Origin: SAR86 cluster bacterium
GTDB taxonomy: Bacteria > Pseudomonadota > Gammaproteobacteria > Magnimaribacterales > Magnimaribacteraceae
Assembly (NCBI GenBank): GCA_023703575.1
Contig: CP097969.1
Coordinates: 839,517 to 903,516 of the forward strand
Direction of reading: 5' to 3'
Length of the DNA stretch: 64,000 bases
Of the stretch, positions 56,853-61,412 are shown piece after piece (the stretch's first letter is position 1; every line of letters starts with the position of its first letter). The notes under the pieces were generated by a model. It was given only the letters and a program-made list of their open reading frames with translations, had not been told where the DNA came from and searched no databases. The position numbers and the translations under genes were made by a program.

Positions 56853-58934
56853 TTAATATGAATACCAAATTGGAGAGGACCACGCCCGCTCCTGTATCGT
56901 TGGTTGTAAATCTTCTCTTGGTCTCGTACCATTTTTTACGGCATCCCAAGTAGACCATCTGCAGCTAGGGTTCTCTAATACTCTTACATAATAAAAAGAC
57001 TTGACTGTAGAGTCAAAAGAATCGTCAGTCCAAACAGTTTTAATTTCATTGGCTCCCCTATCTGAGCTTATAGAGCAATCAGAAATATCCACTAAAGCAT
57101 CATTATCTGGGCATCTTTTCGTAATAGGATCAGGGGTTAAACCATCTGAACATGCCACATCTATAACTTTTTCATGTGGACGTCCGGATATTCTATCTAC
57201 CCAACCTTTTATGATCTGTACTCTTTGTAAAGGAGCTGCATTTCTGTCTCTCATTGCCCATATAAGGAAAGAAGGAGCAGTACCTTGAGAGGCTTCCAAA
57301 TCTTGTCCCATGGGCACTCCTTTTTTATAAGCCTCCTTTACAAGATCAGCCCTATCCAATAAAGACTTATCAAAATTGTAACCTCCGAAGAATCTAAGCT
57401 TAATTCTGCTGCCGGATGTAGCGTAAGTCTCTTTTCTGCGGAAGGCATCAAAAATAGAATCTCTTGTATTTTCTTCTGCCCAAACTGCAGCTAAGCCTGA
57501 GGCTCCCCATGTATTAAAGACAGCATTATTAAAATTTCTCTCTCCTATTTTCTTGAAAGCTAGTTGCCTAATCGCATTACCACCAGTTAAGTCTTGCACT
57601 TGCTGATCAGATATTGGAACTGATCCTCTTGCTACTGGCGTTCCATCCAAGATACCAACTTTAGAATGGAAGTCAGATTCATCATCAGATATCGCTCCTG
57701 TATGAGTATCACTGGCTCCGACCATACCGAATTTATATGGATTACCTCTTCTTTCTTCTTCCAAACCTAATCCATCTAAGTAAGCCTGCCTAACATAACT
57801 TCCGAACGGACGGCTGTAAGATGAGTTTCCAACTCTTTGCCACATGATTTCAAAGTCAGCCCATTCATCATCAGGCGATAGTATCGGATGAGTTTCAGAA
57901 GTTCCCTTAACTTGAGTCATCTCAACTAATGGTTCATTCCTCATTCTAAAGTCTGCATATTGAGTACTAATTGGAAGACCTTCCCAGTTTTCCATTTCAA
58001 ACATTTGTCCATTTGATCCATTCGAGTTATGGGGTATGGCAATCGTATCAACTCCTCTGTCTCTTAGATCATCCATCCAAGTCCAAAGCTTTTCTGGATT
58101 AACTGACTTAAGTCGGGTGTATGGCTCTACGGTAAATTTGTTTCCTTTATAAATTACGTTTCTATGTAAATTAGCATTTTCAAATGGTGGAAAACCATCA
58201 GATCCACAAGTGCCACTTAACCAACAAGTAAGGTCTGAAGCACCTTGAGTATTGGATGATCTAGTAGTTGAAGCTGTATATTCATATGCAACAAAGGTAG
58301 TGAATTTCCCAGGATCATTGTGTCTTTGTGCACTCAATATCACATCTTTCCATGCAGATCTGTGAACATCTACATCATAGAGAGTTGAACCTCTTGCTGT
58401 ATCTCCTGTGAAGTAAGCTATCGTGCGTGTCCAGATATTGCTAAATTGTGCAATATTTCTGACATAGTCTTGAAAAAGTCTAGATCGGGCGGCTACTGAT
58501 TCTTGGTTTAAATTCTCAGGAGCATTTAAGTTATGGAATGGTTCAGTGCCTTCTTTACCATTATTTGGATTTGCCCAATCTTCGACACTTCCCAATAAAA
58601 ATCCATGATCAGTCACTGCATAAAAATCTAAAGGCTCTCTGAGTTGCATGTCATAACCTAAAGGATGCTGTATGGCATTTCCTTTGGCGTATTCGTATGC
58701 ATCATCAGGTGTTGCTGTAGTTCCAAAAATATATGCATCAAATGAATGTTTTGTATGTACATGAAGGTCTCCAAAATAAACATTTCTATTCGGATTATAT
58801 CCAGGAGTAGATCCAGGCTCAGGGTCAGGAACAACAAGGTCATTCGTGTAATCAACTACACTGTCAGGAGAAGTACAGCTCCAAAGGCCAAAAATTAAAA
58901 ATAAGCCAAATATGACTTTTTGAAAGTTACCCAT
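56853..58934 (-). CDS. DUF3604 lipoprotein
   Basis: The 693-residue protein is a DUF3604 family member. ATG 58934 follows GGGGAGA; a GTG 12 bases upstream lies in that site. A lipoprotein signal ends at Cys20 (LFLIFGLWSC). YFGDLHVHTKHSFDAYIFGTT and FYAVTDHGFLLG resemble the metal-binding HxH and following motifs of PHP/amidohydrolase folds. TIAIPHNSNGSNGQMF, GASDTHTGAISDDESDFHSK and RMRNEPLVEMTQVKGTSETHP are conserved with its neighbour. The biochemical function is unknown; a periplasmic hydrolase is likely. The family is frequent in marine Gammaproteobacteria. Confidence 0.9.
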   Translation of the reverse strand: MGNFQKVIFGLFLIFGLWSCTSPDSVVDYTNDLVVPDPEPGSTPGYNPNRNVYFGDLHVHTKHSFDAYIFGTTATPDDAYEYAKGNAIQHPLGYDMQLREPLDFYAVTDHGFLLGSVEDWANPNNGKEGTEPFHNLNAPENLNQESVAARSRLFQDYVRNIAQFSNIWTRTIAYFTGDTARGSTLYDVDVHRSAWKDVILSAQRHNDPGKFTTFVAYEYTASTTRSSNTQGASDLTCWLSGTCGSDGFPPFENANLHRNVIYKGNKFTVEPYTRLKSVNPEKLWTWMDDLRDRGVDTIAIPHNSNGSNGQMFEMENWEGLPISTQYADFRMRNEPLVEMTQVKGTSETHPILSPDDEWADFEIMWQRVGNSSYSRPFGSYVRQAYLDGLGLEEERRGNPYKFGMVGASDTHTGAISDDESDFHSKVGILDGTPVARGSVPISDQQVQDLTGGNAIRQLAFKKIGERNFNNAVFNTWGASGLAAVWAEENTRDSIFDAFRRKETYATSGSRIKLRFFGGYNFDKSLLDRADLVKEAYKKGVPMGQDLEASQGTAPSFLIWAMRDRNAAPLQRVQIIKGWVDRISGRPHEKVIDVACSDGLTPDPITKRCPDNDALVDISDCSISSDRGANEIKTVWTDDSFDSTVKSFYYVRVLENPSCRWSTWDAVKNGTRPREDLQPTIQERAWSSPIWYSY

Positions 58935-59033
58935 AAATCTCCCCACTAAGAAAGATTAATTTAACAATTTACTTAGAGCTTGGAAAGGTAATCATCAAAA
59001 AATTTATAGAAAAAAATTCAATTAAGTTAAGGA

Positions 59034-61100
59034 TTAAATATCATCAGGTAAAATATTACCTATTGTGATACCTTCATTGTCTGGAATGTACCAGATAGGT
59101 GAACTCCAAGCTCTTTCTTGTATCGTGGCAGGAAGGTCTGCTCTGGGAATCTCTCCAGATTTTATTGCATCCCATGACGACCATCTACAAGTAGGATTTT
59201 CTAAAACTCGCACATAATAAAAAGCTTTCAAGTTTGGATCAAAATCAGGATCTTGCCATACTGCTTTAAGTTCGTCGGCACCCAAATTTTTAGATATCCT
59301 ACAGTTATTTAAGTTAACCTTAGCTCGAGTATCCCTACAAAGTTTTGTCTTTGAATCAGGCCTTCTGCCATCTGCGCATGCTACGTCATATATCTTTTCG
59401 TGAGGCTTTCCACTCAACTCAGTCCATCCTTTAATTATCTGAACCCTGTCTAAAGGTGCCCTTTTTATGTCTCTTAATGCCCAAACCATGAATTGAGGAA
59501 TTTTATTCTCAGACTGAAATAAATCAGAACCCATTGTTACCCCATTTAAGTATGCATAATTTATAGGATCTTCCTTATTAAAGACATCATCTATTTCATA
59601 TCCTCCAAAAAATCTCACTTTAATTCTGCTTCCGGTTGTAGCAAAAGTTTCTTTTCTTCTGAATGCGTTATAGATAGATTCTCTGGTGTTATCTTCAGCC
59701 CATACAGCTGCAAGACCAGATGCACCCCATTCAGTATAGCCTGTATCAATATATTCTTGACCACCAATTTCTTTATATCCATTAATAATTACATTCGCTC
59801 CGGAGCCTTCTATTTGCTCTTTAAAAGATTTCGTAAGAGGGGCTGCACCTCTCAATTCTGGTGTACCATCGAGAATACCTATTTTTGAATGGAAATCTGA
59901 TTCCTTATCAGATATTGCCCCAGTATGAGTATCGCTCGCACCCACAAGACCAAATTTATAGGGATTTATTTTATATTCAGAATCTAATGAAAGGCCCCTT
60001 AAGTAAGCGTTCCTTACATAACTGCCTGTTGGGCTAGAATAAAATGGAGATGCTACTCTATTATTCATAATTCCAAAATCTGCCCATTTATCTCCTGGTG
60101 AAAGAAGTGGATGAGTATCCGATGTCCCCTTAACTTGCGTAATCTCGACTAATGGTTCGTTTCTCATTCTTTTCGAAGCATAGTCATCGTCCATTGGATT
60201 TCCTGCCCAATCTACAAGTTGGAACATTTGTCCATTTGATCCATTTGAGTTATGAGGAATTGCAAGACTTTCAACTCCAAGGTTTCTTAGATTATCCATC
60301 CAATCCCATAAATCCTCAGGATTACTAGAATCTATGATTGAGAAAGGCTGAATGGGAGCCTTGTTATCTCGGAAAATAACATTTCTATGAAGATTACTTT
60401 GCCCTGGGCCACTTGAAGTAAATTCATATGCTATGAACGTAGTAAATTCTCCAGGGTTGTTATGCCTTTCAGCAGCTTCTGCTATATCTCTCCAAGCAGT
60501 GTGATGAGTTTCTCTATCGTATGCCCTTGTCCCATAAACCGTGTCCTCCTGCAAATAAGCACCAAGCATTTTTATAGGATTCTTTGAGGGTTCAATTAAT
60601 TCATTTGTTATTAGGTTAGCGAATAATCCAGCTCGCCTAACAAATGTGTTCGTGTTTAAATTTTCAGGATCATTTAATCCATGAAGATCTGAAGCAAAAT
60701 CTAACTTACCCGGTCTAGAAGAGGGATCCGCATATGCCGGCAACATCCCCAGCCAAGCAGCATGATCTGTAACAGCATAAAAATCCAAAGGATCATCAAG
60801 TTGCATGTCGAATCCCAGAGGATGTTTAATTGCACCTCCTTTAGCATATCTGTATGCATCATCAGGTGATGCGGTTGTTCCAAATATAAAGGCATCGAAA
60901 GAATACATTGTGTGAACATGAAGATCACCAAATAAAGCATCTTTATTCTGATTACTTGAAATTTCTTTGATCCTTGGGGTTTTTTCTATAGAGAAATCTA
61001 CAACATCATCTTTTATGGAAAAAATATTATTTGCACCTAAAATAAAAATTATTGCAGCAAATAAAAGAGCTATCAGAAAGGTTCTTATTATTACGCTCAT
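59034..61100 (-). CDS. DUF3604 protein with N-terminal membrane anchor
   Basis: The 688-residue paralogue of the preceding gene shares the same DLHVHTMYSFDAFIFGTT start, HNSNGSNGQMF, GASDTHTGAISDKESDFHSK and the C-terminal RAWSSPIWY. The N terminus differs: it has a transmembrane helix (TFLIALLFAAIIFILG) rather than a lipobox, so it may stay in the inner membrane facing the periplasm. GGGGAG precedes ATG 61100. The two genes are an 86-99 bp tandem pair, probably from duplication. The LexA-like box lies about 105 bp upstream, so it may share that control region. Confidence 0.9.
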   Translation of the reverse strand: MSVIIRTFLIALLFAAIIFILGANNIFSIKDDVVDFSIEKTPRIKEISSNQNKDALFGDLHVHTMYSFDAFIFGTTASPDDAYRYAKGGAIKHPLGFDMQLDDPLDFYAVTDHAAWLGMLPAYADPSSRPGKLDFASDLHGLNDPENLNTNTFVRRAGLFANLITNELIEPSKNPIKMLGAYLQEDTVYGTRAYDRETHHTAWRDIAEAAERHNNPGEFTTFIAYEFTSSGPGQSNLHRNVIFRDNKAPIQPFSIIDSSNPEDLWDWMDNLRNLGVESLAIPHNSNGSNGQMFQLVDWAGNPMDDDYASKRMRNEPLVEITQVKGTSDTHPLLSPGDKWADFGIMNNRVASPFYSSPTGSYVRNAYLRGLSLDSEYKINPYKFGLVGASDTHTGAISDKESDFHSKIGILDGTPELRGAAPLTKSFKEQIEGSGANVIINGYKEIGGQEYIDTGYTEWGASGLAAVWAEDNTRESIYNAFRRKETFATTGSRIKVRFFGGYEIDDVFNKEDPINYAYLNGVTMGSDLFQSENKIPQFMVWALRDIKRAPLDRVQIIKGWTELSGKPHEKIYDVACADGRRPDSKTKLCRDTRAKVNLNNCRISKNLGADELKAVWQDPDFDPNLKAFYYVRVLENPTCRWSSWDAIKSGEIPRADLPATIQERAWSSPIWYIPDNEGITIGNILPDDI

Positions 61101-61204: not shown

Positions 61205-61224
61205 TACTGTATATTTATACAGTA
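61205..61224. promoter_or_regulatory. LexA (SOS) box candidate
   Basis: The core CTGTATATTTATACAG fits the gamma/betaproteobacterial LexA consensus CTGT-N8-ACAG. Over the full 20 bases it matches the E. coli consensus at all but one central position, and it is a perfect 18-bp palindrome around a central TT. Its last base is the A of the ATG at 61224. A TATATT at 61210-61215 with TTGTAA at 61188-61193 (16 bp apart) would put the -10 inside the box, as in classic SOS promoters. Confidence 0.72.
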
Positions 61225-61412
61225 TGAAAGATATATATAGAAAAAATAAACATTCAGGCCAGCCGATGGCAGTAAAAAGCATTGACACAATAGAGTTTAC
61301 AGAGACATTCAATTATCTGTGGATAGATAGATTGATAACCTCGTTATACATAGTCTTATCAGTTTCATTGACCATCATTTCTTTTGCATTAATGCTAGGC
61401 ATTTCCATTTAA
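61224..61412 (+). CDS. 62-residue single-pass membrane protein under a putative SOS box
   Basis: The short gene encodes a basic N-terminal part (MKDIYRKNKHSGQPMAVK) followed by SIDTIEFTETFNYLWIDR, then a long hydrophobic helix (LITSLYIVLSVSLTIISFALMLGISI) to the end. It should insert once in the inner membrane. There is no SD before ATG 61224; an internal ATG at 61266 would give 48 residues with a normal leader. No family is recognised. A near-perfect LexA box touches the first ATG. Small SOS-induced membrane proteins include division inhibitors (SidA, YneA) and toxins (TisB), so a damage-response role is a hypothesis. Confidence 0.6.
   Translation: MKDIYRKNKHSGQPMAVKSIDTIEFTETFNYLWIDRLITSLYIVLSVSLTIISFALMLGISI

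Follow-up and report, generated by a model that had tools for sequence, protein, structure and literature searches.

A near-consensus LexA (SOS) box that runs onto the start codon of a 62-codon reading frame in a SAR86 genome raises the question of whether LexA controls this gene and what its small membrane product might do in the SOS response. SAR86 is among the most abundant bacterial groups of the surface ocean, and the family concerned here, Magnimaribacteraceae, has a cultured member, HIMB1674. The SAR86 order consists of four families (PMC11582366), and our literature search found no paper treating its SOS response. We analysed a window, by which we mean the whole 64,000-nt stretch of DNA (G+C 36.2%), together with the 1.59-Mb genome that holds it, and compared them with SAR86 cluster genomes as relatives (35 at the level of the family, in seven genera, and 203 at the level of the order).

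A first, sequence-only reading of the locus had described a perfect CTGT-N8-ACAG site that agrees with the E. coli consensus at 19 of 20 bases and has the A of the ATG as its last base. Both statements were borne out by the sequence itself (Table 1): TACTGTATATTTATACAGTA, which contains CTGTATATTTATACAG (61207-61222), differs from the consensus TACTGTATATATATACAGTA by a single mismatch, and the motif TACTGT-N8-ACAGTA lies over the predicted -10 element. By itself, CTGT-N8-ACAG is not significant in the window, with one site found versus 0.6 expected. Once both outer half-sites are included, the 20-mer is significant in the genome, where TACTGT-N8-ACAGTA occurs three times and the reversed-pattern control not once; the other two sites stand before recA and before umuDC. 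A second box-like site in the window, at 58274 with three mismatches, falls inside coding sequence and was taken as chance.

Table 1. Positions of the box, the predicted promoter elements and the small gene within the window.
Feature	Position	Strand	Basis
-35 element TTGTAA	61188-61193	+	promoter scan; TTG 36-38 nt before ATG in 25/25 sequences
LexA (SOS) box TACTGTATATTTATACAGTA	61205-61224	+	direct sequence; final base (61224) is the A of ATG
-10 element TATATT, inside the box	61210-61215	+	promoter scan; 16-bp spacer
62-aa single-TM SOS protein, no known family	61224-61412	+	ORF of 62 aa plus stop; homologues in 25/35 family genomes
Basic N-terminal segment M-x-D-x-[Y]-x-x-N-x(5)-PMA	61224-61277	+	conservation, 23 sequences
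Juxtamembrane WxDRL motif and TM helix, residues 33-59	61320-61400	+	conservation; AlphaFold2

Homologues of the small protein represent all seven genera of the family. None was detected in the remaining 168 genomes of the order, and a class-wide sample of 369 genomes gave a match in the genome of the window only. Conservation of the box at a fixed place amid varying flanking DNA, which had been proposed as a check on its function, is what the homologues present, as counted on 25 sequences from the 24 family genomes in which the start codon is assembled. In all 25 the half-sites TACTGTATA and TATACAGTA are invariant, the core being TT, or AA in three sequences, and the one-base overlap of box and ATG is never shifted. 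The DNA upstream of the box is divergent, save for a TTG at -36, -37 or -38. We also considered whether the gene had been lost from the 10 family genomes without it. Eight of these also lack a match to the adjoining acyl-CoA dehydrogenase and in the other two the contig stops before or inside the locus, so we attribute the absences to incompleteness and not to demonstrated loss. The gene has been inherited strictly vertically at one locus. In one family genome (G009) the boxed gene is found on two separate contigs (C3 and C49; L103 and L106), as copies or fragments; these differ in sequence and one lies at a contig end, so that they represent either a second copy or a strain mixture.

The strong box marks a small set of genes. 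Across the 35 family genomes we found two to five TACTGT-N8-ACAGTA sites per genome (zero to one for the reversed control), the maximum of five being reached in a genome where the small gene is present twice, as copies or fragments. Among the sites listed and classified, with classes assigned by core sequence and context, the strong boxes form four classes: lexA, recA, umuDC and the small gene. Comparison with the boxes of lexA, recA and umuDC had also been suggested at the outset, and in the family the same motif fronts all three. The upstream regions of 18 family lexA genes could be parsed, and each of the 18 has a box in which the eight CTGT/ACAG bases are all present, most often TACTGTATATAATTACAGTA. 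G040 is the genome of a member of a sister family; in the 1.15 of its 1.19 Mb that were read, strong boxes stand at lexA, recA and umuDC only. No sulA-type gene was found behind a strong box among the classified sites, nor in the portion of G040 that was read. Taken together, the small gene is almost certainly under LexA control, and the strong LexA regulon of the family looks minimal from its sequences, with four genes or operons, a tally of strong boxes to which weaker boxes may add members. Since other SAR86 families keep lexA and lack the small gene, the latter is not indispensable for an SOS response. As a side observation, the lexA box in the genus of the window stops 6 nt short of the ATG, and the one in the sister family (G040:C1:704577-704596, L152) has the A of the lexA ATG as its last base, the layout also present at the small gene. 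In addition, the UmuD of the family (L020, G000:C1 ~399,290-399,716, minus strand) has VGWPSP where E. coli UmuD has the cleavage site CGFPSP, and this motif is conserved among the family UmuD sequences compared.

The LexA DNA-binding domain (PF01726) had no match in the assembly from which the window comes (G000), which would suit an alternative in which the palindrome is the operator of some other repressor and LexA is missing from this genome. Against this, LexA was found in 26 of the 35 family genomes and 167 of the 203 order genomes, the same motif precedes lexA, recA and umuDC, and the assembly itself has a gap. Synteny with a related genome (G017) breaks within a thrH-like gene (G000 ~375,425-375,460; L107:13424-13460), where the truncated thrH-like gene is joined to a truncated TonB receptor. 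Between the same two points G017 carries ~27 kb with lexA, topA, a dihydroorotate-dehydrogenase-like (pyrD-like) gene and an NAD-kinase-like (nadK) gene, the last two names being read from the translated sequence. The C-terminal part of topA was likewise not found in the genome of the window. Because the loss of genes such as lexA and topA is unlikely, a misjoin is the better reading of the break; the junction is probably an assembly error, and LexA seems to be absent because the ~27 kb are missing there. Candidates for a repressor other than LexA, S24 proteins among them, were considered, but the only S24 match is the UmuD of the boxed umuDC operon, and the assembly has the ~27-kb hole. Control by a repressor other than LexA is thus extremely improbable. 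The sequence-only reading had named a lexA that recognises another motif as a possible objection. A composite SAR86 LexA query (the N terminus of the G029 protein joined to the remainder of the G017 protein) aligns with E. coli-type LexA from end to end, with the recognition helix SPNAAE-HL and an AG cleavage site, so that the family LexA has a recognition helix of the E. coli type.

The position of the box bears on how the gene would be transcribed and translated. The promoter scan showed no excess of promoter-like sites in the region, and the weight of the promoter call therefore rests on conservation across relatives: among the 25 sequences, the TTG of the -35 element is the sole conserved element upstream of the box, with TTGACA in several. 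From the promoter geometry we predict a transcription start at ~61221-61224, which would give a message that is leaderless or has a leader of 1-3 nt. The distance from box to ATG is fixed, and there is no room for a Shine-Dalgarno sequence such as recA of the same genome has; both points make a leaderless or near-leaderless message likely, and we consider a leaderless start of the small-gene message fairly probable. With the -10 element and the start codon both lying under the operator, repression is expected to be tight. A predicted leaderless promoter with its operator on the start codon would constitute a compact repression design.

The earlier description of the product as a 62-residue single-TM protein resembling no known protein held up in both respects. 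Hydropathy peaks at 2.3, and AlphaFold2 predicts one helix over residues 15-57 (pLDDT ~85-95 over residues 31-60); the gene behind the LexA box thus encodes a small single-pass membrane protein. Searches of Pfam, NCBIfam, PHROGs, PADLOC, the PDB, phage records and viral contigs gave no significant match to it; weak hits to Imm58 (E 0.03-0.04), phrog_6743 (0.005, in one member) and CARF (0.05) were discarded because they were far below the cut-off or confined to a single member. In particular, no SulA domain was matched in Pfam or NCBIfam, and no extracellular LysM domain scored above the Pfam cut-off, there being at most a few residues beyond the TM helix. The description of the N terminus as basic holds for residues 1-18 and fails over residues 1-36 (6 K/R versus 5 D/E). 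Since no charged residue follows position 37, an N-in topology is suggested, with the basic N terminus in the cytoplasm and almost no extracellular part. Homologues fall to 44% identity, and where dS could be estimated dN/dS is mostly 0.04-0.2, a pattern of purifying selection on the protein. Among 23 sequences M1, D3, N8, P14, M15 and A16 are invariant and Y5 and S11 are conserved in at least 90%, residues 19-32 are variable, and W33, D35, L37 and Y42 are again invariant, with R36, S40, L45, I52, S53 and G59 in at least 90%. D35, Y42, S46 and S53 share one face of the helix at 100 degrees per residue, and the helical periodicity of conservation is weak or borderline (shuffle p ~0.05).

These features suggest how the gene may act. 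We propose that it is a lineage-specific SOS effector gene which LexA, bound to a near-consensus operator that overlaps both -10 element and start codon, would hold tightly off in undamaged cells. Cleavage of LexA triggered by RecA filaments would then release a message whose 5' end is the AUG itself or lies no more than ~3 nt from it, to be translated without a Shine-Dalgarno leader. The product would be a 62-aa inner-membrane protein that crosses the membrane once, keeps its basic N terminus on the cytoplasmic side and exposes almost nothing outside, and the WxDRL motif and the D/Y/S/S stripe on the helix would most likely dock onto another membrane protein. The likeliest target would be the septal synthase complex FtsW/FtsI/FtsN, so that division would be delayed during repair.

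Small membrane proteins with such a role are known from several bacteria. SidA, YneA, SosA and ChiZ are LexA-controlled and impose a late block on division (PMC4211646, PMC13396833, PMC6851548). In Caulobacter, the LexA-repressed sidA encodes a 29-aa membrane protein that binds FtsW, and the 71-aa single-TM protein DidA binds FtsN (PMC4211646). The SAR86 protein is, like these two DNA-damage-induced proteins, a small single-TM inner-membrane protein, but the libraries searched revealed no sequence relation to either. It also resembles YneA of B. subtilis, ChiZ of M. tuberculosis and SosA of S. aureus in being a single-TM protein behind a LexA box, but lacks both the extracellular LysM domain of YneA and ChiZ and the extracellular extension of SosA. 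The TM helix of YneA contacts TM7 of FtsW, and ChiZ, SosA and SidA have been modelled likewise (PMC13396833). Toxicity requires the extracellular LysM domain in YneA and the extracellular extension in SosA. That the SAR86 protein has almost no extracellular part speaks against a divisome target, and its best-conserved residues, which are cytoplasmic and juxtamembrane, could point to another partner. SulA, for its part, is soluble and binds FtsZ. This division inhibitor of E. coli is tightly repressed by LexA (PMC9578287); the SAR86 protein shares with it a gene behind a LexA box, but is membrane-bound and without similarity to it. A checkpoint role is favoured by the conserved hydrophilic half, by a TM helix that looks suited to docking, by the expected tightness of the operator and by the want of a boxed sulA among the classified sites. 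By analogy we give a block of division during DNA repair an even chance, and an FtsW-type target, likened to those of SidA, YneA and SosA, is our guess.

A different role would be that of the E. coli membrane toxins. TisB is translated under the control of IstR RNA. DinQ is translated under the control of the antisense AgrA/AgrB RNA (PMC3567139). As a toxin or persistence factor of the TisB or DinQ type, the SAR86 protein would insert into the inner membrane, lower the proton-motive force and send damaged cells into dormancy, and like TisB and DinQ, which are LexA-controlled membrane peptides (PMC11575346, PMC3567139), it is a small single-TM protein behind a very strong box. Both, however, are shorter and their translation is RNA-controlled, whereas the SAR86 protein is twice the length of TisB, its message is predicted to be leaderless and its N terminus is conserved. 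The conserved hydrophilic N-terminal half with its invariant residues would be needless in a pore peptide. Moreover, no Rfam match, and hence no recognised antitoxin RNA, lies near the gene (an RNA of a new kind may still be encoded there), an RNA would find no untranslated leader on which to act if the promoter prediction holds, and inheritance is strictly vertical at one locus. We therefore regard a toxin as unlikely. The protein might instead be induced in the SOS response to modulate an enzyme, protease or transporter of the membrane, as many small single-TM proteins do, and so adjust the physiology of the envelope or of repair while leaving division unblocked. Its conserved cytoplasmic N terminus, WxDRL motif and polar stripe have the general look of a partner-docking helix, and none of the evidence singles out the divisome; by analogy, though, SOS membrane effectors beyond lexA, recA and umuDC would most often be division checkpoints, and we consider such a regulator possible, if on the improbable side. 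In a more far-reaching reading, we suggest tentatively, and with more doubt than confidence, that the family has added a protein of its own, unrelated to known ones, as the only non-repair, non-regulatory effector of a four-operon strong SOS regulon. This protein would be read from a leaderless, very tightly controlled message and would act on the divisome or another membrane target through a new WxDRL/TM interface. The analysis thus defines an apparently minimal strong LexA regulon in a SAR86 family together with one undescribed effector protein. If the block of division is real, it would be a further independent invention of a small-membrane-protein checkpoint and would bear on the recently proposed convergence of these checkpoint proteins on FtsW.

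The genes around the small gene offer another candidate for control by the box. A steroid-reductase-like gene (PF02544; 61454-62212) follows on the same strand 41 nt past the small ORF, no terminator was found between the two, and in the genome of the window transcription may read through. The sequence-only reading had suggested a shared transcript, and one could go further and let the box serve the reductase gene, the small ORF being only a leader peptide or part of the operon. Most genomes have the reductase gene behind the small gene. Two genera (G009 and G016) lack it: they retain box and small ORF, and the gene directly behind the small gene is the acyl-CoA dehydrogenase. This places the reductase outside the conserved unit and weakens the idea of a shared transcript. 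The box is fixed to the start codon of the small ORF, and the small protein is itself under purifying selection; that the box exists for the reductase is accordingly very improbable, and we take it to serve the small gene. Upstream of the small gene lie two tandem, divergently oriented paralogues of ~690 aa each (56853-58946 and 59034-61100, minus strand). Some relatives (L010, L017, L083) retain no more than remnants of the nearer one, while the box and the small gene persist.
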